A DNA stretch of 64,000 nt from a virus, in the IMG/VR virus record IMGVR_UViG_3300010413_000013, positions 1-64,000 of that record, one strand, 5' to 3'. The notes under the pieces were generated by a model. The model had not been told where the DNA came from. It saw only the letters and a program-made list of their open reading frames with translations, and did no database searches. Of this stretch, positions 44,854 to 64,000 are shown one piece after another. How positions within the stretch are numbered: the first letter of the stretch is position 1; each line of letters begins with the position of its first letter. The position numbers and the translations under genes are program-made.

Positions 44854-44865
44854 TTTAAAATCTCC

Positions 44866-47886: not shown

Positions 47887-48287
47887 TATGATACATAGCC
47901 TAACACTTTAAATTTGATAGAAACAGAATGGGCATATCTACCAAAACTCCTTGGGAGTCTTCCAACAAACTTTACTACATATGTATTTCCATCATAATGT
48001 GTCCACTGAATACTTCTTGCTGTCCCATTAGCTTTACTGCTATTATGATAGAACTCCATTATAGTACCAGCATCAGCAGCCGACATATGATCCCACCGCA
48101 AAGTAGCAAAAAATATAGAAGCATTAGACAAGGCTATACTACTTTCAGATCCATCATCATATTCATGGGTAATTATATTTTTATAACCTTCTTCTTCTAT
48201 TACTTCTTGTGGTTGTAGAGTTAGAGTATCACCAGTATAATCTGCCGTATCAGCAGATAAATAATCTTTCATAGTCTTTGCTGCCAT
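47886..48287 (-). CDS. Minor tail protein, distal-tail-like
   Basis: This encodes 133 residues. A beta-rich small domain (STLR-like SIFFATLRWDHMSAADAGTI, then SIQWTHYDGNTYVVKFVGRL and SVSIKFKVLGYV) fits short tail-tip proteins found between the tape measure and hub. Start and stop overlap neighbours closely (TAATG with the hub gene). The exact role in the tail tip is not certain. Confidence 0.65.
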   Translation of the reverse strand: MAAKTMKDYLSADTADYTGDTLTLQPQEVIEEEGYKNIITHEYDDGSESSIALSNASIFFATLRWDHMSAADAGTIMEFYHNSSKANGTARSIQWTHYDGNTYVVKFVGRLPRSFGRYAHSVSIKFKVLGYVS

Positions 48288-48298
48288 ACTTTCGCCTC

Positions 48299-51200
48299 TT
48301 ATAGATTAGGGTTTGTTTCTTTTTGACTTGCTATTGCATCAGCAATTACTTTACTATCAAGTTGGACTATTACTCTATACTCTCCGTCTACCATTTGTAC
48401 AGGTATTCCATCTCTTCTCATTTCTGCTACAATTCTTTCTGCTAAATCCTGATTATCATCAATGGAGCCTACTTCTACTTGTACTTGTTTAATAGCATCC
48501 AAACCAGCTTGATAGATATCCTTATATTGTGCTTCATCAGCAGCAAATTGTTTCATAAAAGGTAGATAACTATTTTCAAAGTAGGAGTAGAGTTTATCCA
48601 ATCCTTCAGCATTCTGAGTAGTAGACAACATCCTTTCAAAAATACCTCTAATGTTTTGGGTAGTCTGTACTGGTGCTAAATCAGAAGTACTAAGTCTATC
48701 TTTAAAATCTTGGAAACCTTTTCCAATATCTGCCATAGTATCAAGGAAACCTTCAGACAGTGTATCAGAATATGCTTCTATTACTCTCCTAATTGCTTCC
48801 GGTTCTCTTGCTCTAATGTTATTTAGTTCTTGTGTGCTTCCTCCTAGTTCTTTCATTGTTTCTATAAAACTATCAAACTGATTTTCTACACCTTCTATAG
48901 CAGATTCTAAAGCAGTAGAATCTCCAAGTAGGGACTTCATGTAATAAACAACATCAGTAAACACATTTCTTCTCTTTTGTGCATACAATGCTGTTAATTT
49001 GTTAGCTGCTGTAGTTCTTTGTAAGTCTACAGTTGCTATCAAAGAAGAAGCAGCACCAAGTTCTTTCAATCTCTCTATTGCATTATCAAAAGTATCTGTC
49101 ATACTTGAAAAAGCTGCTTCTTCTTCATTTTGTACTCTTCCTAAATTTCTAGTGTATTTAGTAATATCTTCGTAAGTACTTTGAATATTTTTAAAATTTA
49201 TTCTAGCTGCTTCTGCTGCTCTGGCTGCTTCTGCTTGTGCTAGTTCTGCTGCTCTCCTTGCTTGTTCTGCTCTAAGTTGTGCTTCTCTTGCTCTAGCTTC
49301 TGCTTCTGCTTTCCTTGCTGCTTCTTGCTGTTCTATATATCCATAGTAAGAATCTAACGAAGATATCATTCCCAATAAAGAAGTATAAGTTTGTCTACCA
49401 GCATTACTTGTAAGATCCAACGTCTTTATAAGTTTAACAAACTCTTCTCTAGTTCTTGGCAATGCTAGACCAAGATCGTTAAAAGCATGATGTATTTCTG
49501 TAGACTGTAAGCTAAATCTTTGTGTATCAGTTAAAAAGACATTTACAAAGTTATCTACTGAAGCAGCTAATTCATCAAAACCTCCAGCAGCAGCAATTAG
49601 GTTAGAAGCATCTACATAGCCTAGACTTCTTCCCTTTATTCCTGTACTTCTTACCATCTCATTTACATTAGTAGTAACAAATACTCTTCTTACTTGTTCA
49701 TAGGCACTATTAAATACTGCTATCATATCCTTCTGCACCATCTCTGCCCATTGGGTAGCTTGTGCATCCAGATCACCTTGTAGATCTAGCTTCATCCCCT
49801 TAGTACTAAATTCTATATTACTACCAGCTAACTTATCTTTTAACATATCTCCAAATTCATCTGGCAATGCAGCTATAGTTTGATCTGCAAGCTGGTAGAC
49901 TTCCTCTGCTGCTGCATTTACTATATCATGTAATGCTTCTGCTCCCTGTACTTGCCAAGAATCTTCTGCCCACCTATCCTTATGCCACTGTACAGTACCG
50001 GATAGTAAATCACTACCCCACTTCTCTGTTCTGTTCTCTGTAAATGGACCTATAGTAGTATTTGGTTTTCCTCCACCACCAAACAAAGAACCAAGAAGAC
50101 CACCTCCTAAAGATCCTAAAAAGCTACCAATGCCGGGAAGTATTGCTGATCCTATAGCACCACCGATAGAAGCACCAAGATCAGCAAAGCTGTCTTCTTT
50201 GAAGATTCCTAATGCTTGTCCTATTTTTCCTACTCCAAAACCCATTCCCAAACCAGTAAAACCGTCTAGTATTTTTCCACTCAAACCTAGTAGATCACCT
50301 AGACCATTCAACATATTCTTTCCAGTACTCCACAGATTCCCACCAAAAGAAATTATATCAGTCCAAAGTCCTTTAAGTCCACCTCCTATTGCTCCTAATA
50401 ATCCACCACTAGCCCATCCACCAGTGATACCACCAGTAAGACCACCAAGCAAACCTTGGAAGATATTCATTTGACTACTAGCTGCTGCCATTTCTGCAAG
50501 TGTTCTAATGAAGTAATCCAACATCCTATCAGCAAAATCTTCAAATGTGTTTAACTGCCCTCTAAAAATATCATAGTAGACATCTGCTGTAGCATTCTGC
50601 ACTCTTTCTAAAAATATTTTATTCGCTATATCACAGTTTTCTAGAGTTTCCTCATACTTCATTCCTACATTTACTTCTATATCTTCACTCATTGCCTCTG
50701 TAGTTCTTTCAAAAGATGCTTCTACATCTTTAAATCCTGCTTCTGGAAAGAATGCTTCTTGAACACTCTTCTGTAAATCTGTACTAAATTTAATATCACT
50801 AAGAGTAGGAATTTTTAATTCAAAACTATCAAGATCTTTAATGATGTTACTAATCTCCTTACCTGCAACTTCTGCTTCTTCTCCTACACCTTTTAAAGAG
50901 TCTTCCAAATCATCTAAGGAAGAAGAAAAACGATCTGTTTGTAGAGATGCTTCTTTAAAGAAACCACCAAGTAATATTCCCTTTGCTTCATCACCAAACT
51001 TGATATCGGCTAGTGTTTGCGTTTGTACTGCAACATTTTCTAAACCATCTGCAACAGCATTAAAAGTATTTGCTACTTCTTCTGCACTTTCAGCCATAGT
51101 CTTTACTGGCTTTGCTTCTTTTAGTTGTTCTCTCAATACTGATAATTTCTTTTGTAATTCCCCTATTCTTTTTTCATCTTCTTCAATAGGAACACCAAAT

Positions 51201-52498
51201 ACCCACCTCCAAAAACCACTATCAGTTCTAGCTTTCAGTTTGTCTAATTCAGTTACTACTTTTGATATTTCTTTTTCAATAGTAATTTTTCGTATGTTTT
51301 TTTCATAGTCTTCCATTGCTTTAGCTAACTCTTCAGTAGACATAGTAGCAGCTTCAAGCATGGTTAATTGTCCTTCATCTATTAGAAAGAGCACATCCCT
51401 ATCAGTAATTTTATACAAAGTTTCTATTGCTTTTAGAAATTGGTTTACATATCCCATTCTATCTAATACAGACTGTATAAAAGTTTCGCCTTTTTCTTCT
51501 GCATCTTCTTCAGCTTTACTTAAACCAAAAAGTCTAGTAATTATATTATCAAAAGCACCTACTACTCTTGCTGATATGGATACTATTCTAGTTAAGCCTA
51601 CATATAATTCTCCAAAGGATTCTGCTATATTTGAAATCATACTTCTTAATGCAGTTCCTTTTACCATATCAGTAAGATCTTTTAATGCTTCTGTTGTACC
51701 CATAACAGCTTTAGAAAATCCTGCTAAAAAAGCTTTTCCAAATTCAGTTTTAAGATTTTCTATATACCTACGCATGGAAAGTAATTGCTTCCCTGCTTTA
51801 GTCATTGCTGCTTCATATGATCCTTGTATAGCTACTGCTTGTTCATATACAGCATTTAATTTTGCTTGCATCCTTTCATTATCATTTAATTCATCAGTAG
51901 TTTTATTCATACTATCTGCTAGCTTTTGATATGACTGCTCAAAGCTAACATTTAAACCCATTGTCCGTAGTACTCTAATCTGTCCAGTTTGTAGACCATA
52001 AATTAATTGTTCATAAGCAGCAGAAGAATCCATGTTAGCAATTACTGCTGCATCTTGTGCTATCCTTGCAAGCTTGGTAGCATCAGTAAAATCTATTTGC
52101 GCTTGCATTGCTCTAATAGTATTTTGCCTTGCTTGCGTAGAAGTAATACCTAGCTTTTCTAGAGATTCTACTACTTCATACAATTCCTTTGAAGTGTGTC
52201 CTGCTGTTTGCCCCATTCGTTCCAGAACTACATCTAGCACCTCCTCCCTAGCAGCTAATAGAGTAGACTCCTTTATAAGATCAATTGCTTTTCTAAATGT
52301 GTGTATAGCAGTAGTAACCGCTGCTAATGCCAGTAGCCAATGTGACTTTAGCTTTGTAACCCATCCCATAGAAGACTTTGCGGTAGCACCAGTAGTAGCT
52401 TCTAGTTGATTAACTGATCCTACAGCTTGTTTCATCCCTTTGACAAATTGGGTATTATCTACTCCTAATTTAGCTATCAGGTTTCCTATAGTAGCCAC
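48299..52498 (-). CDS. Tape measure protein
   Basis: This encodes 1399 residues. It begins with ATIGNLIAKLGVDNTQFVKG, a typical opening, then long helices, a glycine-rich hydrophobic centre (LLGGLTGGITGGWASGGLLG, IGQALGIF, ILPGIGSFLGSLGGGLLG) that may cross a membrane at infection, and an alanine/arginine/glutamate coiled coil (KAEAEARAREAQLRAEQARR). Tape measure length sets tail length; at about 1.5 angstrom per residue this predicts a tail near 210 nm. It lies right after the tail chaperone pair. Confidence 0.9.
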   Translation of the reverse strand: MATIGNLIAKLGVDNTQFVKGMKQAVGSVNQLEATTGATAKSSMGWVTKLKSHWLLALAAVTTAIHTFRKAIDLIKESTLLAAREEVLDVVLERMGQTAGHTSKELYEVVESLEKLGITSTQARQNTIRAMQAQIDFTDATKLARIAQDAAVIANMDSSAAYEQLIYGLQTGQIRVLRTMGLNVSFEQSYQKLADSMNKTTDELNDNERMQAKLNAVYEQAVAIQGSYEAAMTKAGKQLLSMRRYIENLKTEFGKAFLAGFSKAVMGTTEALKDLTDMVKGTALRSMISNIAESFGELYVGLTRIVSISARVVGAFDNIITRLFGLSKAEEDAEEKGETFIQSVLDRMGYVNQFLKAIETLYKITDRDVLFLIDEGQLTMLEAATMSTEELAKAMEDYEKNIRKITIEKEISKVVTELDKLKARTDSGFWRWVFGVPIEEDEKRIGELQKKLSVLREQLKEAKPVKTMAESAEEVANTFNAVADGLENVAVQTQTLADIKFGDEAKGILLGGFFKEASLQTDRFSSSLDDLEDSLKGVGEEAEVAGKEISNIIKDLDSFELKIPTLSDIKFSTDLQKSVQEAFFPEAGFKDVEASFERTTEAMSEDIEVNVGMKYEETLENCDIANKIFLERVQNATADVYYDIFRGQLNTFEDFADRMLDYFIRTLAEMAAASSQMNIFQGLLGGLTGGITGGWASGGLLGAIGGGLKGLWTDIISFGGNLWSTGKNMLNGLGDLLGLSGKILDGFTGLGMGFGVGKIGQALGIFKEDSFADLGASIGGAIGSAILPGIGSFLGSLGGGLLGSLFGGGGKPNTTIGPFTENRTEKWGSDLLSGTVQWHKDRWAEDSWQVQGAEALHDIVNAAAEEVYQLADQTIAALPDEFGDMLKDKLAGSNIEFSTKGMKLDLQGDLDAQATQWAEMVQKDMIAVFNSAYEQVRRVFVTTNVNEMVRSTGIKGRSLGYVDASNLIAAAGGFDELAASVDNFVNVFLTDTQRFSLQSTEIHHAFNDLGLALPRTREEFVKLIKTLDLTSNAGRQTYTSLLGMISSLDSYYGYIEQQEAARKAEAEARAREAQLRAEQARRAAELAQAEAARAAEAARINFKNIQSTYEDITKYTRNLGRVQNEEEAAFSSMTDTFDNAIERLKELGAASSLIATVDLQRTTAANKLTALYAQKRRNVFTDVVYYMKSLLGDSTALESAIEGVENQFDSFIETMKELGGSTQELNNIRAREPEAIRRVIEAYSDTLSEGFLDTMADIGKGFQDFKDRLSTSDLAPVQTTQNIRGIFERMLSTTQNAEGLDKLYSYFENSYLPFMKQFAADEAQYKDIYQAGLDAIKQVQVEVGSIDDNQDLAERIVAEMRRDGIPVQMVDGEYRVIVQLDSKVIADAIASQKETNPNL

Positions 52499-52500
52499 TG

Positions 52501-52839
52501 CTATTTACGCCTCACTCTTTTTATTCTCTTCTGTTTATTCTTATGGCTTTCATTTACATCCTTGGCAAATGCTTTAAGTGCTTCTCTAGCTTTTGCCATG
52601 CTCTCTTCCGGTACTTCAAAAAATTGTTTTTCTAATTCTTCTAAGTCCGGTAAATAATCTTCTACCTTATATACTTTGTTTGATCCTTTCTTTTGTGGAG
52701 TAGTATTAAGAATTGTACACACTATCATAATTGTTCTTCTTAATTCTTCTCTAGGACCAAAAGGTTCGAGTAGATGAAATGCTTTCCAATACTTTAATTC
52801 TTTAGCAGACATTCTAGAAAGCATTTCATCTACTGTCAT
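52501..52839 (-). CDS. Tail assembly chaperone, T-like part (frameshift product)
   Basis: This frame contains 112 residues from an ATG at 52839, but the frame is open further upstream to the slippery site at 52893-52899. The -1 frame joins at CTG ATA CTC and gives a natural bridge (RIFYHRLAGHLGMTVDEMLS). MTVDEMLSRMSAKELKYWKA and LLEPFGPREELRR match gpT-like tail assembly proteins. It is most likely made only as the C-terminal part of a G-T fusion of about 266 residues. Confidence 0.8.
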   Translation of the reverse strand: MTVDEMLSRMSAKELKYWKAFHLLEPFGPREELRRTIMIVCTILNTTPQKKGSNKVYKVEDYLPDLEELEKQFFEVPEESMAKAREALKAFAKDVNESHKNKQKRIKRVRRK

Positions 52840-52889
52840 CCCTAAATGCCCGGCCAGTCGATGGTAGAATATTCGTTCTGGTCGGAGTA

Positions 52890-53300
52890 TCAGTTTCCCA
52901 CTAGTTCTTCTACATCATCATCAGTCATACCAGAAAGTCTTTGTGCTACCTCAAATACTCTATTGATAGCTTTACCAGACTTCTCTCCTAGTTTCTCTAT
53001 ATCTTCTCCTTTAAAAATCCTTTTCCCATTTTCATTTCTAATACACCTTGCACAAAGCCTAGCTCTTAGATTTGCGAGATTCCTTTTAGTATTTCTACCT
53101 TTACCAGTAGTAATCATAGTTTCCTCAAAGGCATCACGTTCCTTTGCTGTTAAACCATATACCCAAACACTTCCTCCCCACTCTGGAACTTCTACTAATT
53201 CACTCACTACATCTTGTACATTAAATATTTCATCTTTGGTTAAAATCTTAACCTTTGCTTCTACTATTTCTACTTCTTCCGTTTTTTTCTCGTCTTCCAT
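52890..53300 (-). CDS. Tail assembly chaperone, G-like
   Basis: This encodes 136 residues. The zero-frame product has the plan of lambda gpG-like chaperones (ILTKDEIFNVQDVVSELVEV, VYGLTAKERDAFEETM, RLCARCIRNENGKRIFKGED). It binds the tape measure before tail tube assembly. It ends GTG GGA AAC TGA, in which GGGAAAC is a -1 slippery sequence in correct phase. Confidence 0.82.
   Translation of the reverse strand: MEDEKKTEEVEIVEAKVKILTKDEIFNVQDVVSELVEVPEWGGSVWVYGLTAKERDAFEETMITTGKGRNTKRNLANLRARLCARCIRNENGKRIFKGEDIEKLGEKSGKAINRVFEVAQRLSGMTDDDVEELVGN
52893..52899 (-). other. Programmed -1 frameshift site
   Basis: On the minus strand the heptamer G GGA AAC stands directly before the UGA stop of the G-like frame (52892-52890). 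It has the X XXY YYZ form in the zero frame. Slipping back one base opens the T-like frame with no stop up to 52501. Confidence 0.82.
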
Positions 53301-53347
53301 GTTTTTCTCCTTTTTAAGAAATGCCGTTTGTTTTCATTAAATTGTTA

Positions 53348-53770
53348 TTATGAACTTACACTGATTGCACCGGAAACTTTTAACGTAACATTAATAGTAA
53401 TCTTATCATCCAAAGGAACATCCAACGGTAGATCAGTAACATAAGCAGCAAATTCCAAAGTAGTAGCAGCAGAATCAGGTAAGACAATTTGATAATTTAC
53501 AGAAGTATCTGTATCAAAATCATCCTTCATGTCTTCATAACCTTGGTGTGTAAAGTTCATTACTAGTGATACTTCACCGGGATCTCTGAAAGCACTGATA
53601 AATTCCCGATAACCTCCAGCAGAATCTAGGGAAGTAACATCAATGAAAGCTCTTGACATACTAGGACCAGAAATACTATTTACTTCTGCTACTGCCGTAA
53701 AGCTTTCATTACTTGTTCCATCACCTCTTTTAAATGATGCACCGACACCACTAATTGCATTTGTAGTCAT
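53348..53770 (-). CDS. Major tail tube protein
   Basis: This encodes 140 residues. GVGASFKRGDGTSNESFTAV, then SISGPSMSRAFIDVTSLDSA, GGYREFISAFRDPGEVSLVM and a final TINVTLKVSGAISV follow the lambda gpV-like tail tube fold. It polymerises into the tail tube on the tape measure. The ribosome site AAGGAGGC is 14 bases from the ATG, unusually far. Composition is richer in G+C than the small genes. Confidence 0.88.
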   Translation of the reverse strand: MTTNAISGVGASFKRGDGTSNESFTAVAEVNSISGPSMSRAFIDVTSLDSAGGYREFISAFRDPGEVSLVMNFTHQGYEDMKDDFDTDTSVNYQIVLPDSAATTLEFAAYVTDLPLDVPLDDKITINVTLKVSGAISVSS

Positions 53771-53792
53771 AACTTAAAAACAAGCCTCCTTT

Positions 53793-54185
53793 TTACTCTG
53801 TTCTATTTATCTCAAAATTAATACTCCACTTATATCTACCTCTATCATCCTGACCTAGATTGATAGGTTCAGAAACTTGAAAAACAGATATATATCTAGT
53901 ACCTCCTATAGTTACATTATGCTTTCCATGTAGAGCAGTAGTAATACTTCTACATAGTGCATAAGATTCTTCATATTGGTTAATCTTCCCTCTAACTTCT
54001 ATCATCACTCTAGGAAATTCATCTACTCTACTTGCATCTGGAAATGGTCTACCTCCACCAGAATCATATATGCATATACATTCATCCGGCACATCTGGCA
54101 TAGATCCTATAAATAGATCTGTACCAAAAGTAAATAAACCAGAAGTATCTAACCAATTCAATAAATCTTTTGATGCTGGATTCAT
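53793..54185 (-). CDS. Tail terminator-like protein
   Basis: This encodes 130 residues. IGSMPDVPDECICIYDSGGG, then RVMIEVRGKINQYEESYALC and HNVTIGGTRYISVFQVSEPI, ending in WSINFEINRTE, match phage minor capsid/tail terminator proteins, which cap the tail tube. It overlaps the previous gene by 4 bases. Position (after the tail-completion gene, before the tail tube) fits. Confidence 0.75.
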   Translation of the reverse strand: MNPASKDLLNWLDTSGLFTFGTDLFIGSMPDVPDECICIYDSGGGRPFPDASRVDEFPRVMIEVRGKINQYEESYALCRSITTALHGKHNVTIGGTRYISVFQVSEPINLGQDDRGRYKWSINFEINRTE

Positions 54186-54766
54186 TTTATTTCAGCTTTC
54201 TTTTTTATAGTGTCTAGTATCTTTTTCTTATGCTTCACTAAAGGTTCTTCTAAAAACTTCCACCTACCGGCTTTTCTTGTACTATAAACCTTTCTTTTAC
54301 TTCCCTTCTCGGGTTTATATATCTTTCCTGTAGGACTTTGCCCTCCTGTCTTACCAGCTCTAGGATTCTCATGTACAAAAGCAGCATAAGAAGCAGAAAA
54401 ACCTATTACAGACATTAGTATAGAAGAATTTCCAACAATTTGTTTTGACTCTTGTACAGCAGCATTATGATCTACTCTAGCTTTTTCTGCTTGTTGGCTT
54501 GTACCATGAAAATTATTTGGTATTCCTCCTTCTGCTACTATTGCTTTTTCCATCCAACCACTAGGAGCAGGACCAATAACATATGCACTATTCTGCAAAT
54601 TACCAGTTACTACTGGACAAATCTGCACTGCTTCTCCTTTAATATAAAGAGCAGCACTAATTAAACCAGAAGCCGTTCTATTATTGATCTTCTTAATCTC
54701 ACTATTAATATTCTTAATAGTTTCTTCTATTCCCTTCCACTCTATTATTTTTGTTTGCTGTACCAT
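54182..54766 (-). CDS. HK97 gp10-like tail completion protein
   Basis: This encodes 194 residues. ASGLISAALYIKGEAVQICP followed by VVTGNLQNSAYV is the HK97-gp10 signature (helix, then P-V-x-T-G-x-L-x-x-S), and SASYAAFVHENPR is the conserved YAxxVExG-like segment. A basic C-terminal extension follows. The protein helps complete the head-tail joint. It lies between the connector and terminator genes. Confidence 0.82.
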   Translation of the reverse strand: MVQQTKIIEWKGIEETIKNINSEIKKINNRTASGLISAALYIKGEAVQICPVVTGNLQNSAYVIGPAPSGWMEKAIVAEGGIPNNFHGTSQQAEKARVDHNAAVQESKQIVGNSSILMSVIGFSASYAAFVHENPRAGKTGGQSPTGKIYKPEKGSKRKVYSTRKAGRWKFLEEPLVKHKKKILDTIKKKAEIK

Positions 54767-54770
54767 TCTA

Positions 54771-55130
54771 CTACTCCAAATAATAGAACTTTATAAAATC
54801 AGATCCTAATAGATCTGGTATCTTTCCTGTTCCTATTATCTTTCTAGATGCTGCTACATCTCTAGGACCAGCAGTAGAAGATGATAAATCATCTAAATCT
54901 CCTAAGAACAGGAAACCATCTATTGCCAAGGTAGAGTTAGTAAAAACTTTAGCAGTAGACATTTTCTCTTCTCCATCTAAACCTATCAACAACTTTTCTT
55001 TATCTTCCCATCTACAATCAATCTCTACTGGTGCATCATATGTTTCACCATACCCACTATTAGTAGAAGTCGCCCAATAGACCGCTGTCTGTTTATACTT
55101 CCTCTTCATCCTATTAATTAAAGCACTCAA
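54771..55130 (-). CDS. Head closure/stopper-like protein
   Basis: This encodes 119 residues. KRKYKQTAVYWATSTNSGYG followed by DAPVEIDCRWEDKEKLLI and KVFTNSTLAIDGFLFLGDLD follow the head-closure fold seen in small connector proteins of siphoviruses. It overlaps the upstream connector by 4 bases and is 4 bases from the next gene. Role inferred from position and pattern. Confidence 0.72.
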   Translation of the reverse strand: MSALINRMKRKYKQTAVYWATSTNSGYGETYDAPVEIDCRWEDKEKLLIGLDGEEKMSTAKVFTNSTLAIDGFLFLGDLDDLSSSTAGPRDVAASRKIIGTGKIPDLLGSDFIKFYYLE

Positions 55131-55489
55131 TTTATCACCTCAAAGGAACAAGTCTTCTTTCCTGTTTGTGCTAATATACCAGAAGTATCTAGTAGTAATA
55201 CTTGCTGCCCATACATAGTACCCTCCAAACCTTTCCACGTTTGCCCACTATAGGTAGCTTGTGCATCTCCTATCTTCTCTGATACTGCTTCCCTTGCCAA
55301 TGGAGTACATGATACTAGATGTGCTGCATACCATCTAGCAATATTCTTCAATCTTTCGGCAGCATGTATTCCAGTTAGTTTCTCTGTTACTATTGAATTT
55401 GCTACTTCACAAAATGGATCTAATTGTGCAGAAGTCAAATCTGTATCCATTATCTCCAATACATCAGCACCAGTTACATAATTTGTCAT
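55127..55489 (-). CDS. Head-tail connector protein
   Basis: This encodes 120 residues. TGADVLEIMDTDLTSAQLDP and ANSIVTEKLTG, then IARWYAAHLVSCT are helical features of gp6/gp15-like adaptor proteins that sit under the portal. It ends in a short beta part. It follows the sulfotransferase gene by a 4-base overlap, so the glycan cassette is inserted directly before the connector block. Confidence 0.75.
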   Translation of the reverse strand: MTNYVTGADVLEIMDTDLTSAQLDPFCEVANSIVTEKLTGIHAAERLKNIARWYAAHLVSCTPLAREAVSEKIGDAQATYSGQTWKGLEGTMYGQQVLLLDTSGILAQTGKKTCSFEVIN

Positions 55490-56190
55490 TTTACTCCTCC
55501 TTCTTCTTTATAATGCCAGAGTTTAGGAGATACAAAATCTTCTATTTCTTCTTTGTGGTATTCCAAGTCTAAATGTTTTATCATTTCTTCTGTTCCAGTA
55601 AAGTCACCATTGATAGCTTTAAATGGCCAATACTCTATTAGATCTATACTTAACATCTTCATTTCTGCAAATCTCTTCTTGTGTTCATTTATCCAAACCA
55701 TCCAACCATTTCTTTTATTGAATGCTCTCATAAAAGAAGTCTTTAAACAAGAAGAACAAATATCATAGTCATCTCTTCTAACCAAAACCCATTTTGCTTC
55801 TGGAAACATTCTAACCCATATAGGATAGATCAAACAAAGCTTTGCTCCTTTAAAGAACCACACCGATTTACCATCATACCCTTGTCTATATAAAATATCC
55901 ATTACTTCTTTCTTGTGTCTATTACATATCTCCATACTACCATTTGCATCCCAAGTAACTCTATCAATAGGAGGTAATGGATTCTGCCCCATTGGATCTA
56001 CTGCTATACTTTTTAAATATGGTTTAATTACTTTATTTCGGATAGCAGTATTTTCATATTGTCCTTTCTGATTATTGGGAGTGCTACCAACTACTTCTCC
56101 TCCCCATGCTCCGCATCTACTTATTATCCCTGCGGTAAGAGAAGTTCCACTTCTAGCACATCCAGTTATTAGTATAGGTTTATCTTTCAT
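55486..56190 (-). CDS. Sulfotransferase-like protein in the late operon
   Basis: This encodes 234 residues. ILITGCARSGTSLTAGIISR is the PAPS-binding loop and WVLVRRDDYDICSSCLKTSF the 3'-phosphate binding segment of the sulfotransferase fold, with about 110 residues between them as expected. The acceptor is probably a glycan, in line with the four glycan-type genes before it. It joins them by TAATG and the connector gene by ATGA, so it is part of the late message. Not closely similar to the one at 12.1 kb outside the binding motifs. Confidence 0.72.
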   Translation of the reverse strand: MKDKPILITGCARSGTSLTAGIISRCGAWGGEVVGSTPNNQKGQYENTAIRNKVIKPYLKSIAVDPMGQNPLPPIDRVTWDANGSMEICNRHKKEVMDILYRQGYDGKSVWFFKGAKLCLIYPIWVRMFPEAKWVLVRRDDYDICSSCLKTSFMRAFNKRNGWMVWINEHKKRFAEMKMLSIDLIEYWPFKAINGDFTGTEEMIKHLDLEYHKEEIEDFVSPKLWHYKEEGGVK

Positions 56191-56921
56191 TAGAAGTCAC
56201 CATTCCATTCTTTTCTAAATACTGCTGGATTCCCTGCATAAACGCCCGGTTCATCTATATTCTTAACTACTACAGATCCCATACCTATAAATACTTTACT
56301 ACAGATATGAATACCATTTCTAATAGTAGAATTTAATCCTATAAAACAATCATTTCCTATTAATGCAGATCCACCTATTACTGTTCCATCAGTAATAATA
56401 TTTCTGTTTCCTATTCTTACATTATGTCCTATATGCACACCACAACCTATTTTAGTTTGACTTCCTATTACTGTATAATCCAAAGTAGCCCTAGCAATAG
56501 TAGAGTTTGCTCCTACTACTACTCCCTTTTTCAAAACAACACTTCCCATGTGTTTTAAACCCACTAATTCATTTTTACTGCTCTTTGGTTTATACACTGC
56601 ATATCGCATTCCTTCATTACCAATAGATGCTGTAGGATGGATATATTCTGCATCAATCATATCTGCTCTATGATCCTTGTCTCTATTTACTTCATTGTGA
56701 TAACGAATAAAATCTGCTATATAGTTTTCTCTAGGAAGTAGTAGACAAGCTTCTTCCTGTACCTCCTCCTTCCTAAGAGTTAATGGAATAAGAATTGCTA
56801 CTTCACAACAGTAGGCTTTTGCAATATTGATTTGTGCTTCAGTTTTAGCATAAGTCATAGCATAGTCTACTAACAAATTAACAGAACAGGTTCTATAGTA
56901 TTTCTTCATCAGATCTAACAT
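56190..56921 (-). CDS. LpxD-like hexapeptide acyltransferase
   Basis: This encodes 243 residues, start supported by AAGGAG. The first 90 residues are alpha/beta, then SIGNEGMRYA and a left-handed beta helix of hexapeptide repeats (VVVGANSTIARATLDYTVIG, TKIGCGVHIGHNVRIGNRNI) ending in EPGVYAGNPAVFRKEW. This is the architecture of N-acyl or N-acetyltransferases acting on amino sugars. A catalytic His is likely in GVHIGHN. The sugar and acyl donor are unknown. Confidence 0.78.
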   Translation of the reverse strand: MLDLMKKYYRTCSVNLLVDYAMTYAKTEAQINIAKAYCCEVAILIPLTLRKEEVQEEACLLLPRENYIADFIRYHNEVNRDKDHRADMIDAEYIHPTASIGNEGMRYAVYKPKSSKNELVGLKHMGSVVLKKGVVVGANSTIARATLDYTVIGSQTKIGCGVHIGHNVRIGNRNIITDGTVIGGSALIGNDCFIGLNSTIRNGIHICSKVFIGMGSVVVKNIDEPGVYAGNPAVFRKEWNGDF

Positions 56922-57630
56922 CTTCCTGCTCCTTTGCCATTATCTCAAAAGGATGTGGTGGTTCTTCTGTTTCTCTGTAGATCTTCTGTACCCAACCTAC
57001 TCCACATTCTTTAATTCTAGGTTTACCATGAAACAGTATTACTCTAGCATCTTTTGGTTTTCTTCCAAACTTGCAATGATGTTTAAAACTATAGTACCCA
57101 TCAAAAACACTTTGTACTGTTTTTATTTTAAATCGTCTTTCTTCTAGTTTATTATAAGTATATCTCTGCTCCATCTTATATTTAAAATCTTCTTCTTTAA
57201 ACATCTTGAATAACCAAGTCCAATTACCATTCCAAATCTGTAAACCAGAACAAAACTTCTCTCCTCTATTCTTTGCTAGTGCTTGTGGTTCAGCCATATA
57301 GAAAACATCTTCTGGACAAGTTAAAGCAATCTCTCCCAATCTATCTATATTATCTACTACCAACATATCAAGACCAGAAGCAATTGTTGGTCCCTTTGTT
57401 CGGAACATTTCTATCATGCTCCACCAGCCGGGAAGATTTTTCTGTAATTTAATTGTTTCCATGTATGGGTAGTCAATTTCTAAATCAGTATAACAAATAA
57501 ATCTATGTGGTATTAATAAATGCTTCTTCACTTGTCTACAAAGTGTAATAGCATCAAACTCTTCAAAATCTCCACCAGATTTAAGTGTTACTACAAAGTT
57601 TACTATTTGTTTTTCAGCTAGATTTGCCAT
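56893..57630 (-). CDS. Glycosyltransferase-like protein
   Basis: This encodes 245 residues. PHRFICYTDLEIDY, then LPGWWSMIEMFRTKG and IASGLDMLVVDNIDRLGEI follow the pattern of small GT-A transferases in which the donor site acid-x-x-x-V-D follows a WWSKxxxF helix. A late CGVGWVQKIYRE is also typical. It overlaps both acyltransferase genes. The sugar is unknown. Confidence 0.7.
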   Translation of the reverse strand: MANLAEKQIVNFVVTLKSGGDFEEFDAITLCRQVKKHLLIPHRFICYTDLEIDYPYMETIKLQKNLPGWWSMIEMFRTKGPTIASGLDMLVVDNIDRLGEIALTCPEDVFYMAEPQALAKNRGEKFCSGLQIWNGNWTWLFKMFKEEDFKYKMEQRYTYNKLEERRFKIKTVQSVFDGYYSFKHHCKFGRKPKDARVILFHGKPRIKECGVGWVQKIYRETEEPPHPFEIMAKEQEDVRSDEEIL

Positions 57631-58153
57631 TTTTGTCTAACCTTTCGTTTGATGGAATTTCTTCCATAAATTTAGCTGGATTACCAACATATACTCCATA
57701 GTCATTACACTTGCCTACTACTACTGCTCCTGCTCCTATAAATGTTTCTCTGCCAACAACACATCCCGGTAGTAGTAAAGCACCCATTCCAATTCTTGCT
57801 CCATACATTACTGTAGGAGGAGTAGGATTAAATGGTGCGGTTTCTCTTCTCAAATGTACCATTCGTTTATCATTACCAGAAACTACCATCTGTCCTATAA
57901 ATACTTTATCTCCTATATTCATTCCCTTTGTTATGTTGCATTGTGCTTGAATGAAACAATCTTCTCCTATTGTCAACCATCCTTCTATTACTGTATTATG
58001 CCCTATCTTCGTTCTCTTCCCTACTATTGTTTCTGGTCTAAGTACACAATTATGACCTATAAAAACACCATCCCCAATAATACAACCATCCTCTATTACT
58101 GTATTATGTCCTATTACTACATTCATTCCTATCTTTACATTTTTACCTATCAT
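57614..58153 (-). CDS. Hexapeptide-repeat N-acetyltransferase
   Basis: This encodes 179 residues. Almost the whole chain is a left-handed beta helix (MIGKNVKIGMNVVIGHNTVI, CIIGDGVFIGHNCVLRPETI, TKIGHNTVIEGWLTIG) with the end GVYVGNPAKFMEEI. It resembles WbpD/WlbB-like enzymes that N-acetylate amino sugars of surface polysaccharides. Its start overlaps the preceding stop by 4 bases. Confidence 0.8.
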   Translation of the reverse strand: MIGKNVKIGMNVVIGHNTVIEDGCIIGDGVFIGHNCVLRPETIVGKRTKIGHNTVIEGWLTIGEDCFIQAQCNITKGMNIGDKVFIGQMVVSGNDKRMVHLRRETAPFNPTPPTVMYGARIGMGALLLPGCVVGRETFIGAGAVVVGKCNDYGVYVGNPAKFMEEIPSNERLDKNGKSS

Positions 58154-58788
58154 AACGTATCTTCCAATCTAACCCTAGGAACTATTAATGGATCTATTGC
58201 TGTTTCTTCTGAAGCATTTACAATCTCTACTTTCAATGCTTTCAAATCTTCTACTATTGTATGCATACATGGTAAATATCTACTTTTATATGCGTGTGGA
58301 ACAGGAGGACTTTTATGATAGTTATGCCAGTTAAAAGTTACTACTCCTTTATGATCTTTCTTCCCCTGCATATCAAAACCTAGTAGTACTATCTTCTTTG
58401 CTCCAAAGTGGTAGGCAACATTTATTGCTGACATTCCACTATTCCCATTCCATGATATAAAACCCGGTTTTGTTTCTACTCCTTTTGGTTTCCCCCTCTT
58501 CCATATCTTTACTACATATAAATGATATAGACGTTGGCAAGAAGTCATCCGTAATCCGGGATATTTTAAAAACTCTTCTCTATTCCATCCCCACCATTTA
58601 CAATCTCCAAAGTAACAAGCATCTACCCAAGTACCAAGTTTAAATGCATCATTTACACCTAATACTCTTCTATCATGTATTAGGTGTAGTGGAGATTGTT
58701 TTAAGCTAGGTCCACCACCTATTACATAGACTGTTTCTCCCTCCCATATTTTAGGAGGGAGAAATCTCCTTTTCTTATCGACATTCAT
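58150..58788 (-). CDS. DUF115/MptE-like protein, possible glycosyltransferase
   Basis: This encodes 212 residues. VYVIGGGPSLKQSPLHLI is the nucleotide-binding start of DUF115-type proteins, followed by VLGVNDAFKLGTWVDACYFG and FGAKKIVLLGFDMQGKKDHK. Such proteins include phage and bacterial glycosyltransferases of flagellin or glycans as well as pterin kinases. Context with acetyltransferases supports a sugar role. It is the first gene of the glycan cassette and overlaps the head gene before it by one base. Confidence 0.65.
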   Translation of the reverse strand: MNVDKKRRFLPPKIWEGETVYVIGGGPSLKQSPLHLIHDRRVLGVNDAFKLGTWVDACYFGDCKWWGWNREEFLKYPGLRMTSCQRLYHLYVVKIWKRGKPKGVETKPGFISWNGNSGMSAINVAYHFGAKKIVLLGFDMQGKKDHKGVVTFNWHNYHKSPPVPHAYKSRYLPCMHTIVEDLKALKVEIVNASEETAIDPLIVPRVRLEDTL

Positions 58789-59276
58789 TATTCTATCTTT
58801 TGCCTACGTTTTTTACTCTCAGCACCGCTTGCAATTTTTTCTTCTTGTTCTTCCTCTTCTTTTTCTTCTTCATCCTTGCCCCCTACTTCTACTGTTGGTT
58901 TTTCTGGTGCTCCCATATTTATAAGTTCATCAGCTTCTTTACTACTAAGAAGCCGATTATTTAATTTTTCTCCTGTATCCTCATTAACTACATCAAATCT
59001 ATTAGAACCCCTACTTATCTTCCTTAATGCAGCAGCATCTTTTGTTTCTTCTACTTCTACTTCTTGTCTTACTATCTCATGGTCAACCAACACACCACCA
59101 GAAATTACTTCTAATTTAAACTCCCAACCCTGTACATTCCTACTATCTGGAAAATCATTGAATGTTTCACCGGGGTAGATCTTTGCTCTTACTGCTTTTG
59201 ATGTACCTTCACCAGCTATTATAATCTGGTGTGGTCCATATCCCTTCTTTACTCTATAAGTTCTTTTGTTAGCCAT
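58788..59276 (-). CDS. Head-associated protein of unknown function
   Basis: This encodes 162 residues from ATG 59276 (AAGGAG upstream). The N-terminal half is a small beta domain (YRVKKGYGPHQIIIAGEGTS, KIYPGETFNDFPD) and the C-terminus is a lysine/glutamate-rich tail. It lies between the capsid gene and the glycan cassette, separated from the capsid gene by a hairpin. A head accessory protein is inferred. Confidence 0.6.
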   Translation of the reverse strand: MANKRTYRVKKGYGPHQIIIAGEGTSKAVRAKIYPGETFNDFPDSRNVQGWEFKLEVISGGVLVDHEIVRQEVEVEETKDAAALRKISRGSNRFDVVNEDTGEKLNNRLLSSKEADELINMGAPEKPTVEVGGKDEEEKEEEEQEEKIASGAESKKRRQKIE

Positions 59277-59292
59277 TTTTTTCTCCTTTTTA

Positions 59293-59320
59293 AAGTACTC
59301 CCCCAATTGGGGGAGTACTT
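59293..59320 (-). terminator. Hairpin after the capsid gene
   Basis: A perfect palindrome (AAGTACTCCCCC-AATT-GGGGGAGTACTT type, 12-bp arms) lies 10 bases after the capsid stop. Only three T residues follow on the minus strand, so partial termination or protection of the capsid message is more likely than complete termination. This would raise capsid output relative to downstream genes. Confidence 0.7.
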
Positions 59321-59330
59321 AGTTTAAACA

Positions 59331-60365
59331 TTAGTGATATACAACAATACCACATCTAGCATTCTGATCTGCTCTCGGCTGCGGAAGCATAATAGTCATT
59401 ACCATAAAATGCTGGCTCAAACCACCTCTGCTCTCCCACTGAAGAGTAGTCATAGGAAGACCAACTACCATTCTCATAACATCCTGCGTCAACTGCAACA
59501 TAACAACATAATCGGCAGTAAGTTTATCTGCTACCGTAATAAACTGAATACCATCTACTTCCATAAGTCTCTGCCGAATAGTCTTATCAGAAGCAGCTTT
59601 AAAATCAGCATCAATAGCAGTTTCATAGTTAGTAGGAATGAAGATACCATACGGTCCATAATGGTAGGCATCTATCAAAGCCTGTTTCATAGCCAGTACA
59701 TCAGCAAGCATTGTTTCACCAGTAGCAGCAGAATCATCCCAATCAGCAGTAAGAGATCCAGTATTGGCATTCGTAAAATCCTTAATACCATAAAGTACTC
59801 CACCACCAAAAGTAAAGTTAGAAGAACCATTACAAGTAAGTTCTTCCACCATCTCTGCTACTTTTCTTCCTGCCATTTCAGCACTGGTAGTATCCAACGG
59901 TTCACCCAATGTTCTAGACGCTTCCAACTGCCGAATATTTACTCTAAACTCCTTGTAAATAATCGGGAGAGGCATATACTTCGTGCTCCAGACCGGACGA
60001 TCTTCTACCGCAGTGGGCAGTGGGTCCATTCCAAGAGAAGCATCATTAAATTCATTGAGATCTTCATACTGCAATACGGTCTTTCCTAGGCCATTGGGAA
60101 TACTGTACACCAGACCTTTAGAAATAAAAGTATTTGCACACACTAGCCTATTCCTAGCAGCTTTCAAAACGGCATCGTCAAACTGCTTCCATTCATCTCT
60201 ACGAAGAGTAGCATTTGCTACAGGAACAACTACTCCATTCTGATTCATCATGTAGCATCTACCATCATTTTCTCTCCATGTACGCAATGCACCAATATTG
60301 AAATTAGTAGCCATAAGCCGTTCTGCTACTGATCCTGTGGCTTGTCCATTAAGAATATAATCCAT
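59331..60365 (-). CDS. Major capsid protein
   Basis: This encodes 344 residues. An encapsulin-like HK97-fold layout is visible: WKQFDDAVLKAARNRLVCAN (spine helix side), IYKEFRVNIRQLEASRTLGE (E-loop/P-domain), YGPYGIFIPTNYETAIDADF and QWESRGGLSQHFMVMTIMLP (A-domain end). Codon use is richer in G+C than in most neighbours, as expected for high expression. It has AAAGGAGGC 11 bases before the ATG. It follows the decoration-like gene and precedes a stabilising hairpin. Confidence 0.88.
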   Translation of the reverse strand: MDYILNGQATGSVAERLMATNFNIGALRTWRENDGRCYMMNQNGVVVPVANATLRRDEWKQFDDAVLKAARNRLVCANTFISKGLVYSIPNGLGKTVLQYEDLNEFNDASLGMDPLPTAVEDRPVWSTKYMPLPIIYKEFRVNIRQLEASRTLGEPLDTTSAEMAGRKVAEMVEELTCNGSSNFTFGGGVLYGIKDFTNANTGSLTADWDDSAATGETMLADVLAMKQALIDAYHYGPYGIFIPTNYETAIDADFKAASDKTIRQRLMEVDGIQFITVADKLTADYVVMLQLTQDVMRMVVGLPMTTLQWESRGGLSQHFMVMTIMLPQPRADQNARCGIVVYH

Positions 60366-60397
60366 TATCCAAATTGCCTCCTTTAATTTTTATTTAA

Positions 60398-60862
60398 TTA
60401 TTTAAACATGCACAGACAAAACCCATAGGGATGTGCAGCAGCACCAGCAGAAGAAGAAGAAAGATCAATTGCTTCTAGAGCAATAGCAACAACGTCTTCT
60501 TCCATAACAACAGCAGAAGAATCACCGTGTGCTTCTCTCACTTCTCCATTACCAGCAGATACCAACTTATCTCCAATGGCAATATTTTCTCCGATCTTAA
60601 CCTTCAAGTAGCATTTCGCACCGGGAGCAGGAATTACTGCTCTTGCCCTATCAGTAGTAGCATAAGCATCAGTCACTCCTTCACCTTCCAGATCATTCTC
60701 AATTGCTACCATAACAGGAATACATGATCCACCATCAGTAGAATGTTTCTGGAGTGTATTTGAAGAAGTAAGTTCAAGCAAATGCCCCGGATAGAAAGCT
60801 GCTGCCGGAACTCTTTCAATATACTCTACGTTTCCACCAGCAATAATAGTAGTAACTGTCAT
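60398..60862 (-). CDS. Head decoration-like protein
   Basis: This encodes 154 residues. Beta-rich with EYIERVPAAAFYPGHLLELT and an alanine-rich end (VVAIALEAIDLSSSSAGAAA). Short proteins of this plan (DUF2190-like) lie before HK97-type capsid genes and cap the capsid surface. AAAGGAGGC is 12 bases from the ATG. Composition is G+C-richer than average, like the capsid gene. Confidence 0.72.
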   Translation of the reverse strand: MTVTTIIAGGNVEYIERVPAAAFYPGHLLELTSSNTLQKHSTDGGSCIPVMVAIENDLEGEGVTDAYATTDRARAVIPAPGAKCYLKVKIGENIAIGDKLVSAGNGEVREAHGDSSAVVMEEDVVAIALEAIDLSSSSAGAAAHPYGFCLCMFK

Positions 60863-60892
60863 AATATAATTATGCCTCCTTTAAATCTTAAA

Positions 60893-62470
60893 TTATTCTT
60901 TGTTCATATCTGCAAGAGTAGGTACAGCCATTGGTTCTACTCCTTCAGTATTAAAGACACCACCAGACCTACCACTATAGTCTGCTTCTCCACCTTCCGG
61001 TACAGGAGCTTCTACCAAAGCAGCAATTGCTTCCAGTTCTTCAATGTCTTTTGCTTTAAGCTGATCCTCTGTAAATTTGTTCTTCTCACTTCCGGTAATA
61101 AGAGTAATCAGCTTTGTCTTCTTTGCATCATACTCTTTCAAACCAATCCTAACAGTTTTCTGAACATCTTCTGGAAGATCTTCCATTGTCACTTTTTTCT
61201 CTTCATTATTCACCTGTTTCCCTCCTTCTTCTCCACCTTCTGCCGGGGGAGTTTCCGGTACATCTGGTTGTTTATAAGCGGTTTCCTCAATCTTGGCAAA
61301 TGCTTCTTCATTCAAGCCAAGAAGCCATTCCTTGTCAGTTTCCCCATAGGGAGTATCCTCGTTTGCGATTAATGCATTCACTCTGTCTTCACAACACATA
61401 TTATTAATTGCCTCCTTCTTCATTTTGTTTTTTACTTCTACATATTCTTTTTTAACTTTCACCTCAATAGGTGCTTCGTTAAATTCTACTTCACCGTTTT
61501 GAGTAGTAGAGTATTTTACTTTATATAGTTTACTCTCTTCACCTTCCTTATATCTCTCATAAACTATATAATCCTTATATGCATCTACAAGCCAAAAGCT
61601 CGTTCCTAGTGGTGCTTGTGACCTTACTGCATTAGCTAACTTCTCCAACTTCTCGAACATTCCATCTTCGGTCTTTGCATAGTCTAGCAAACCACTTAAA
61701 AAATGTTTTATCATTCCTTTTATTATATTATCATCTTCTTTTGCTGCTTGATTCCTTAGTAGTCCACACCCATCTGAAGTAGAACATGCTCCTTTATCAT
61801 TTGGCAGCAAAGCTAGATGGTCCCCTCTAATTTCTGTAACAGTTCCTTCATAATCTTCTCCATTCCATGTACCACCTTCCATATCTACAACTGCTACTAC
61901 TCCTGTACTTATTTCGCCTTTGTTTTTATAGCTTAGTACATCATTGATAAAGTTTGGTGCTTGTTCTTCTATCTTAGCAGTATTTATATATAGATCTGCT
62001 TTAATCTTATTATCAGCATATCTACTATTAAATACATTTCCTACCGTACATCTTTCATAAACTTCTGGAGTATCACAAGGTACATACTGTCCATCATCGT
62101 CTTTAGGATGCCCTACTGTTATTGGTGCTTTGTTCCAAACATTGGCATATTTCTCCAGTACATCACTAGAGTAGTAAAGCGGTCCTGCTCCTACTCCACT
62201 ATGCACACCCTCTACTAGTAGTACAGCAGGAATTACTGTAGTAGGAGCATTATTAAATGTTATGTTCTTAGTTTCATTTACCAACAAAGTCACTTTGACT
62301 TGCAAATTATTATTCATTTGGTTGTTTGTCCTTTTCTTTTTAAATTGACTGTAACAAATAGCTGCTCTCTGTTTAGAATCTGAATATTCTTTTTTCATTA
62401 CTTCACTTCCCATACATCTAGAAACGAAGTCTGATTGTTTCTCTCCCTTGCTTGGAGTAGGTATTGGCAT
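60893..62470 (-). CDS. DUF2213 prohead protein (protease/scaffold-like)
   Basis: This encodes 525 residues. The N-terminus (PSKGEKQSDFVSRCMGSEVM, QRAAICYSQFKK) is a motif seen in head proteins of many phages. From about residue 75 the DUF2213 domain starts (PAVLLVEGVHSGVGAGPLYY, NKAPITVGHPKDD, STGVVAVVDMEGG, GDHLALLPNDKGACS), which resembles prohead proteases, with His in GHP and Ser in STG. The C-terminal third is a Glu-rich scaffold-like stretch. It probably shapes and matures the prohead. Confidence 0.8.
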   Translation of the reverse strand: MPIPTPSKGEKQSDFVSRCMGSEVMKKEYSDSKQRAAICYSQFKKKRTNNQMNNNLQVKVTLLVNETKNITFNNAPTTVIPAVLLVEGVHSGVGAGPLYYSSDVLEKYANVWNKAPITVGHPKDDDGQYVPCDTPEVYERCTVGNVFNSRYADNKIKADLYINTAKIEEQAPNFINDVLSYKNKGEISTGVVAVVDMEGGTWNGEDYEGTVTEIRGDHLALLPNDKGACSTSDGCGLLRNQAAKEDDNIIKGMIKHFLSGLLDYAKTEDGMFEKLEKLANAVRSQAPLGTSFWLVDAYKDYIVYERYKEGEESKLYKVKYSTTQNGEVEFNEAPIEVKVKKEYVEVKNKMKKEAINNMCCEDRVNALIANEDTPYGETDKEWLLGLNEEAFAKIEETAYKQPDVPETPPAEGGEEGGKQVNNEEKKVTMEDLPEDVQKTVRIGLKEYDAKKTKLITLITGSEKNKFTEDQLKAKDIEELEAIAALVEAPVPEGGEADYSGRSGGVFNTEGVEPMAVPTLADMNKE

Positions 62471-62472
62471 TA

Positions 62473-62643
62473 TTAGTCTGTCTCCATCTCTATCATTTTT
62501 GTATTCTCTTTTAAATCTAATAATTCTTGTGCTACCTTATCACCTTTCTTTGCTTTTTTCTTCAACCTAGCAGAATTAAACCAATCGTCGTTCAAAGACT
62601 CTTCTACTAAGTCTACTACAAATGGTGCTACCTTCTTTCCCAT
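62473..62643 (-). CDS. Small protein after MuF
   Basis: This encodes 56 residues from ATG 62643, with AAGGGGATGTAAA upstream; it follows the MuF stop directly. It is helical and highly charged (VVDLVEESLNDDWFNSARLK). Its position right after a toxin-like fusion makes it a possible inhibitor of that domain, but it could equally be a head protein. Confidence 0.55.
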   Translation of the reverse strand: MGKKVAPFVVDLVEESLNDDWFNSARLKKKAKKGDKVAQELLDLKENTKMIEMETD

Positions 62644-62644
62644 T

Positions 62645-64000
62645 TTACATCCCCTTCCAAAATAAGTCATTTATAGGTACTTGTTTATTTCCACCTAATA
62701 CTATAAACTCTCTTTCAGACATAAACTTATTCTTCCACCAAAGCTCATGTGGTAGTACTACATCTTTGGTACTCATTTCTATCCTAGCTGTAACCCCACC
62801 AGCGTTTTTTCCAAACCCATCTGCTATTGACACTTCATCTGTATATCCAGACAAAGCATTTTCTCTAATTGGAACCAAACCATAGCCTTCTTTTTGTGCT
62901 TCTAAACACCTTGCTTTAAAGGCTGGTCCTGTTTTACTTCCGTCAGTTCCACGATATAGAGTAATTTTCTTTTGTCCTACTGCTCTATAATATTCTTGGG
63001 TAGCTGCTCTCACTCTTATATACTCGTCTATTACTCTGTCTTCCATACCACTTGCCAAATATTTCTTTACTTCTTTCTCTATAGACTCACTGGATACAAA
63101 AGCTTTTATTTCTCTGTTCTCTACTTTTGCTGCTACAAACTTTAAAGAAGCAGGATACGAACCTTGTGTAGACCCTTGCCAAATAGAAAGGAGGTTCATC
63201 ACATTGGGGCATTCTTCGCTTATCTTCTTTCTGATAACACTCTGCATTGATCCTTCTGTCTTATCTTCTAATCCTTCAATAAACTTTCTGTACTCCTTCC
63301 TGTAAAGCTTGTATACATTCTCGTATTCCCCTCTCAGTGTTCCTACTTCTTCCGCTTCATACTTTTTACCTATCGGATACCTTTTAATCTTTACTGGTTC
63401 TTTCTTCTTTTTAGCATAGTCTAATTTTGCTTTAGCTTTTTCTATAGCCTTTTTCTTTATAGCTATCTGCTTCTCCAGTGCTGCTAATGCTTGTTGTTTA
63501 GCAAGCAGTTCTTGTTTAACCTTTACTGCTTTTATGGCTTTTACTCCTAATGCTTTTTCCCTCTTAGCAGCAGCTTTAGTATTGCTGCCATGAATACTTT
63601 TCATATAAGGTAGTAAAGCACATCTGCAATTTGGTTCACCTATTAACTCTTCTGCTTCTTGCCTAGTATATATTCTACCATGCCTTTCTATATGTGTATC
63701 TCTAACCCTTTCATCTAGTGCTGTCCACCACTGTACTAATATTTCTTCATTTACTATAGGTTCAAAATTCTCGTATTCGGTTAATGCTCCTAAATTATGT
63801 GTTCTTACTATTTCAGTTCGAGTAATCAATCTTGCTCTATTGATTGCTCTCATATTCTTTCCACCTACTGTTACCATACCAGTTTTATCTTTGTCAATAG
63901 TATCCAACATATTCCTAGCAATTTGATATGGTCCCTTACCTTCTGCTAGTCCTAATGATAGTACTCTACTTATCTGCCGATCCATTACTTCTGTAATGCC
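62645..64000 (-). CDS. MuF-like head protein fused to an ADP-ribosyltransferase-like domain, N-terminus beyond window
   Basis: The frame is open to base 64000; 451 codons are visible, with an internal Met at 63985. The MuF part shows GLAEGKGPYQIARNMLDTI, INRARLITRTEIVRTHN, and WWTALDERVRDTHIERHGR with a later PNCRCALLPY. A long lysine/alanine coiled coil links to the C-terminal 110 residues, where KITLYRGTDG, ENALSGYTDEVSIADGFGKN and a final SEREFIVLGG fit the R-S-ExE pattern of arginine-type ADP-ribosyltransferases. MuF proteins sit inside the head, so the domain could enter the host with the DNA. Confidence 0.8.
   Translation of the reverse strand, partial: GITEVMDRQISRVLSLGLAEGKGPYQIARNMLDTIDKDKTGMVTVGGKNMRAINRARLITRTEIVRTHNLGALTEYENFEPIVNEEILVQWWTALDERVRDTHIERHGRIYTRQEAEELIGEPNCRCALLPYMKSIHGSNTKAAAKREKALGVKAIKAVKVKQELLAKQQALAALEKQIAIKKKAIEKAKAKLDYAKKKKEPVKIKRYPIGKKYEAEEVGTLRGEYENVYKLYRKEYRKFIEGLEDKTEGSMQSVIRKKISEECPNVMNLLSIWQGSTQGSYPASLKFVAAKVENREIKAFVSSESIEKEVKKYLASGMEDRVIDEYIRVRAATQEYYRAVGQKKITLYRGTDGSKTGPAFKARCLEAQKEGYGLVPIRENALSGYTDEVSIADGFGKNAGGVTARIEMSTKDVVLPHELWWKNKFMSEREFIVLGGNKQVPINDLFWKGM

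Follow-up and report, generated by a model that had tools for sequence, protein, structure and literature searches.

A capsid-adjacent island of predicted glycan-modifying enzymes with exchangeable contents in an uncultured virus lineage

We analysed a window of 64,000 nucleotides (nt), positions 1-64000 of the 76009-base virus record IMGVR_UViG_3300010413_000013, whose other 12 kb were also read. At 55486-58788 on the minus strand, five open reading frames, all intact and without interruption, encode a DUF115-like protein, two hexapeptide acyltransferases, a glycosyltransferase and a sulfotransferase (Table 1). An earlier interpretation of the letters and their open reading frames (the sequence-only reading) had described them as a five-gene glycan-modification cassette linked by overlaps, lying between a head gene and the connector genes and transcribed with the late structural genes. 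All five reading frames and this late, head-gene setting were confirmed: capsid and post-capsid genes lie upstream, adaptor and connector genes downstream, and all six junctions, including those with the flanking genes, are overlaps (1, 4, 17, 29, 1 and 4 nt). The window's cassette is one instance of an island that a virus lineage conserves at a fixed site, as seen when viruses with related capsids are compared.

Table 1. Genes of the island and its borders, with window coordinates (aa, amino acids; PAPS, 3'-phosphoadenosine 5'-phosphosulfate)
Feature	Position	Strand	Assignment and evidence
Major capsid protein	59331-60365	-	DUF6260 (Pfam 1e-23), phrog_771 head (3e-26)
Post-capsid gene	58788-59306	-	Conserved head-module gene without assigned role; not island-specific
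DUF115/Maf-like glycosyltransferase, island gene 1, 212 aa	58150-58788	-	phrog_4603 8e-33; AlphaFold2 model; Maf match
Hexapeptide (left-handed beta-helix) acyltransferase, QdtC/WxcM-like amino-sugar N-acetyltransferase type, 179 aa	57614-58153	-	Hexapep 2.6e-26
GT-A fold, GT8-like glycosyltransferase, 245 aa	56893-57630	-	phrog_1962 5e-22; structure model
Hexapeptide acyltransferase, LpxD/PglD-like domain in C-terminal half, 243 aa	56190-56921	-	Hexapep 3.7e-15
PAPS-type sulfotransferase, last island gene, 234 aa	55486-56190	-	Sulfotransfer_3 27.6 bits; conserved motifs
DUF4054 head-tail adaptor, downstream island border	55127-55489	-	PF13262 2.4e-5
Head-tail connector, downstream of island	54771-55130		phrog_3881

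For the survey, viral contigs were retrieved by capsid sequence alone (the 80 closest capsids; 78 contigs examined), with simple gene calling and gene labels from profiles made in this analysis. Capsids were clustered at 80% identity for non-redundant counts, the testable clusters having capsids with 45-57% identity to that of the window. In all 70 contigs with enough sequence, a DUF115 gene lies one to four genes downstream of the capsid gene, and in 63 it is exactly the second gene; eight further contigs end less than 1 kb past the capsid gene. Counted without redundancy, DUF115 is present downstream of the capsid gene in 52 of 52 testable clusters. The DUF4054 adaptor is the border gene in 48 surveyed islands, and the interval between DUF115 and adaptor varies from 0 to 9 genes. 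Among 35 closed non-redundant islands, 25 contain the sulfotransferase (the last gene in 24 of these), 22 contain a glycosyltransferase of the window's third-gene family, and two hold DUF115 alone.

Between these borders the contents change. In the 78 islands with both borders present, whose length ranges from -16 to 8037 nt, DUF115 identity declines in step with adaptor identity while the inner genes are replaced, which indicates a fixed site with exchangeable contents. Pairs of viruses with capsids at least 80% identical have nearly all inner genes in common; at 65-80% capsid identity half of the pairs have an inner-gene sharing of 0.3 or less, and below 45% the mean sharing is 0.08.

Contig L006 repeats the window's five genes, order and site unchanged, with one additional methyltransferase-like gene, and the arrangement in L112 is that of L006. 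Together with the capsid-based survey, this recurrence leads us to reject a chance neighbourhood. Between the window and L006, the cassette proteins are 39-50% identical, and the portal, MuF, protease, decoration, capsid and adaptor proteins 32-48%; because the two sets have diverged to the same degree, the cassette appears to have long resided with the head genes. Recent insertion is unsupported on the same ground, and the base composition of the cassette is that of its flanks. A reduced form, with DUF115 and sulfotransferase only, lies between a MuF-like region and a DUF2213 gene in a putative prophage (L004, a sequence within Euryhalocaulis caribicus, L269).

The product of the first island gene matches phrog_4603 over nearly the full length of the profile (7.9e-33; residues 23-212 against positions 1-173 of 178). 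Its score against PF01973 (E 3.8e-6, 27.2 bits) is below the curated cut-off of 34.6, and hence we call the protein Maf-like and do not place it in that family. An AlphaFold2 model built from 52 relatives (pLDDT 94) has the fold of the central domain of the Magnetospirillum flagellin glycosyltransferase Maf (5mu5). The top Foldseek match of this model was the M. jannaschii HPPK; a second aligner placed Maf first (Z 15.6, rmsd 3.1, 184 residues), followed by the sialyltransferase CstII (Z 12.2) and HPPK (Z 11.4). Maf O-glycosylates serine and threonine residues of flagellin and is CstII-like in its central domain (PMC11339370). Within the 52 sequences, G24-S28, N46, D62, G137, D139 and H155 show little or no variation, and all of these except G137 are residues expected at the active site. 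That conservation bears on the possibility that DUF115 serves in head morphogenesis and has no glycosyltransferase activity, the middle genes being passengers at a permissive site. The labelling of a relative in phage D14Q as a putative morphogenic function protein, PmgO, fits this explanation, as do the two islands with DUF115 alone. We nevertheless consider it very improbable, because the expected active-site residues are conserved, the neighbouring genes encode mostly sugar-pathway enzymes, and in one relative (L028 2920-4089, plus strand) a single protein consists of DUF115 fused to a hexapeptide acyltransferase domain, a fusion that links the first two activities of the island.

The remaining four enzymes were identified by profile and structure matches, which bear out the gene identities of the sequence-only reading. 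Both acyltransferases score well above the Hexapep (PF00132) cut-off of 27 bits, with 90.6 bits for the second gene and 55.3 bits for the fourth. The closest kin of the former are amino-sugar N-acetyltransferases (WxcM-like, QdtC), and its PDB matches are 4mzu (1.9e-17), 7s43 (6.6e-15) and QdtC (4e-13); the latter matches LpxD (7e-21, over residues 118-239) and PglD (4e-12). The model of the third gene product (pLDDT 93) resembles glycogenin (Z 17.4), LgtC (Z 16.5) and the PBCV-1 capsid glycosyltransferase (Z 14.1). In this protein GLD replaces the DXD metal motif, with the second aspartate (D88) retained, and because DXD is absent we describe it as GT8-like in fold without placing it in GT8. 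The substitution of GXD for DXD occurs in 25 of 26 glycosyltransferases from hexapeptide-bearing islands; where loci have no hexapeptide genes, the figure is 1 of about 98. On these motif counts, the GXD enzymes are a subfamily that travels with hexapeptide genes and possibly has an altered donor or metal site.

The sulfotransferase assignment is marginal by score (27.6 bits against a Sulfotransfer_3, PF13469, cut-off of 27), and the motifs GCARSGTS and VRR..DI..SC, for binding of the 5'- and 3'-phosphates, are conserved across 14 diverse members. Homologues without a labelled phage gene nearby were found in bacterial genome contigs (L268, L270, L272, L276, L277, L279, L280 and L283), so the family is also cellular. 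A second sulfotransferase-like protein of 266 aa is encoded in the window at 12084-12884 on the minus strand, directly upstream of the terminase gene and distant from the island (Sulfotransfer_3 27.4 bits; motifs GLQRSGTT and KHPYSWIDS); it has no relative among the loci examined and so could not be connected with the island.

Other islands encode related chemistry. Pfam searches of 83 unlabelled island proteins identified 12 GT2 glycosyltransferases, several methyltransferase families with at most nine members each, five adenosine 5'-phosphosulfate (APS) kinases (best 6e-20), four GDP-mannose dehydratases/epimerases, three radical SAM proteins and two further sulfotransferases. The five APS kinases, with Walker A and DGD motifs, adjoin the sulfotransferase in L086, L095, L102, L163 and L168, and a sixth lies near a sulfotransferase in L267, a contig of a deltaproteobacterial metagenome-assembled genome. 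APS kinase produces PAPS, the sulfate donor, and its presence in related islands therefore supports sulfation independently. The acylated and sulfated product proposed in the sequence-only reading is supported, with sulfation backed both by these kinases and by the conserved PAPS-type motifs.

That reading had also called for nucleotide-sugar synthesis genes to be sought in the rest of the genome. Searches of the 76-kb record, which is possibly incomplete, with three families (PF01583, PF16363 and PF00483) found no nucleotide-sugar or APS kinase gene, so that the donors would be supplied by the host. Promoter- and terminator-like sites are no more frequent than in shuffled sequence. The stretch 44000-64000 gave no Rfam match, and the window has no tRNA. 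Elsewhere in the window, at 31805-34435 on the plus strand, a family A DNA polymerase carries an N-terminal uracil-DNA-glycosylase-like domain (UDG 6e-11, residues 51-218).

The virion is one possible destination of such a glycan, and the host envelope another: the enzymes could modify a lipopolysaccharide, capsule or S-layer glycan late in infection, and so block superinfection or the re-adsorption of released virions. Alteration of host surface glycans by phages is known from gtr clusters, CstII, which has the DUF115 fold, acts on lipooligosaccharide, and bacterial chromosomes carry homologous sulfotransferases with no phage genes close by. Against this, a simple hydropathy scan found no hydrophobic segment in 514 of 580 island proteins, or in any of the window's five, and three or more in none of the 580. 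With no protein that looks polytopic, there is no sign in the islands of a flippase, polymerase or oligosaccharyltransferase for lipid-linked surface glycans. A gtr-type serotype-conversion cluster was rejected on the same scan, which revealed neither a membrane flippase nor a membrane glycosyltransferase. In addition, the linkage of DUF115 to the capsid gene and its late-gene position are invariant across hosts, and the closest structural match, Maf, acts on protein. We regard modification of the host envelope as improbable. Of the two destinations that the sequence-only reading had left side by side, decoration of the virion has clearly gained and the host surface has lost ground.

These three observations, namely the absence of polytopic proteins, the linkage to the capsid gene and the Maf-like fold, favour direct glycosylation of a virion protein in the cytoplasm. 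We propose, with a probability of about 0.7, that the island glycosylates a virion protein, probably that of the capsid, in the cytoplasm, and that the glycan is capped by acyl and sulfate groups. We observe which genes the island holds and in what order, the predicted folds of their products, the fixed site, the replacement of the middle genes and the lack of polytopic membrane proteins, and from these we infer the catalysis, donor, acceptor, timing and benefit of the island. The Maf-like DUF115 protein, encoded by a near-core gene of the head module, would use a host nucleotide sugar as donor and place the first sugar directly on serine or threonine residues of a virion protein, in the cytoplasm and late in infection. 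The likeliest acceptor would be the major capsid protein, encoded just upstream of the island, and we consider this assignment probable. The GT8-like enzyme would then extend the glycan, the two hexapeptide enzymes would N- or O-acylate amino sugars, whether these are still part of a nucleotide sugar or already in the glycan, and the sulfotransferase would add a sulfate cap from host PAPS. Other members have, in place of the middle genes, other glycosyltransferases, methyltransferases, epimerases or an APS kinase of their own, and because these genes are replaced between members, we propose that each virus carries a different surface glycan. The predicted identities and folds of the enzymes thus uphold the view of the cassette as a glycan-modification system.

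A different acceptor within the virion, such as a tail or fibre protein, would give the glycan a role mainly in tuning receptor binding or stability. Large proteins with 18-22% Ser+Thr are encoded upstream of the MuF gene; examples are two Ser/Thr-rich proteins with repeats, 799 and 833 aa long. DUF115 relatives occur in phage tail operons. In this lineage, however, DUF115 adjoins the capsid gene in every testable contig, and we hold a tail or fibre acceptor to be rather unlikely. The large acidic Ser/Thr-rich proteins number four (L002 2784-7684 and 9440-13992; record 64784-69684 and 71440-75992); two have degenerate repeats and one is a beta-helix, and they may lie on the virion surface and be alternative acceptors of the glycan. 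The post-capsid protein was also considered. Its relatives follow the capsid gene, by profile match, in about 50 contigs, and weak relatives occur in StAshley and Hardycor1, phages without the island, which leaves a role as island-specific acceptor unsupported; the equivalent gene of K1M and KpV2811 is annotated as a head fibre, to which the window's post-capsid protein shows no similarity.

Several points weigh against the capsid-glycosylation proposal. The virion glycan is predicted here from genes, folds and position, and the DUF115 fold leaves the acceptor unfixed, given that CstII shares it. The window's glycosyltransferase is without the first aspartate of DXD and, judging by this motif, may be altered. 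More distant capsid relatives (StAshley, Hardycor1, K1M, KpV2811 and 587AP2) have no such island at the capsid-adjacent site, and hence the island is not universal. Caulobacter and Brevundimonas jumbo phages carry DUF115 in a tail operon, in CcrColossus beside other glycosyltransferases, and for this reason the acceptor may be a tail protein. In unrelated capsid lineages the gene stays close to the head, which speaks for the proposal: shortly after the capsid gene in contigs with an HK97-type phrog_10 capsid (L062, L066, L072 and L096), within the head/neck cluster in Pseudomonas phages D3 and PAJU2, and a few genes from the capsid and portal genes, on the strand opposite its neighbours, in T4-like contigs. 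The expectation that the cassette should not recur in unrelated places far from structural genes is therefore mostly borne out, the departures being the tail operons and the homologous sulfotransferases that stand alone in bacterial chromosomes.

If the proposal is extended to the DUF6260-capsid lineage as a whole, its capsids would bear a virus-specified glycan, in many cases sulfated, whose first sugar a near-core Maf-like enzyme attaches to the capsid protein and which gene swaps at one fixed site diversify, giving exchangeable coats comparable to bacterial serotypes, with some viruses making their own sulfate donor; we judge the odds of this wider statement to be even. Phage capsids are commonly depicted as bare protein. 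A capsid-linked glycosyltransferase with interchangeable sugar, acyl, methyl and sulfate enzymes would imply that steady selection acts on virion surface chemistry in these uncultured phages, and suggests that changeable coats of sugar are common among tailed viruses, which may bear on how phages are recognized by antibodies, grazers and surfaces. The island predicts sulfated phage glycoproteins and supplies a gene marker to find them, and it points to cultured systems for testing, namely phages D3 and PAJU2 and the putative Euryhalocaulis prophage.

Virus-encoded glycosyltransferases decorate the capsid of the chlorovirus PBCV-1, whose capsid glycosyltransferase shares the fold of the window's enzyme; PBCV-1 differs in being a eukaryotic virus with an unrelated capsid, and no sulfotransferase is known to take part in its capsid glycosylation. 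In mycobacteriophages Che8, Corndog and Myrna, phage-encoded glycosyltransferases decorate the capsid and tail-tube proteins, a result of Freeman 2023 as cited in PMC11256854 and PMC12363180; the glycosyltransferases are others, and the citing passages report no fixed capsid-adjacent island and mention no acyltransferase, sulfotransferase or APS kinase. Glycosylation of phage capsids is thus already known. Within the searchable literature, which leaves out most subscription journals, we found no account of an exchangeable island that adjoins the capsid gene and ends in a sulfotransferase, and no paper joining a phage sulfotransferase and glycosyltransferase with capsid or head-tail; such an island is apparently undescribed. 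Phages D3 and PAJU2 and the Caulobacter and Brevundimonas jumbo phages share the same DUF115 family (phrog_4603), at 27-32% identity and mostly without hexapeptide, GT8-like or sulfotransferase neighbours. The flagellin Maf islands offer a further likeness, in that a Maf-like transferase acts on protein in the cytoplasm and is accompanied by exchangeable sugar-modifying neighbours beside the gene of the structural acceptor (PMC11339370, PMC4065374). The phage protein differs in consisting of the central catalytic domain only (212 aa, as against 632 in 5mu5), and the phage islands encode no nonulosonic acid pathway and have capsid genes as their neighbours.

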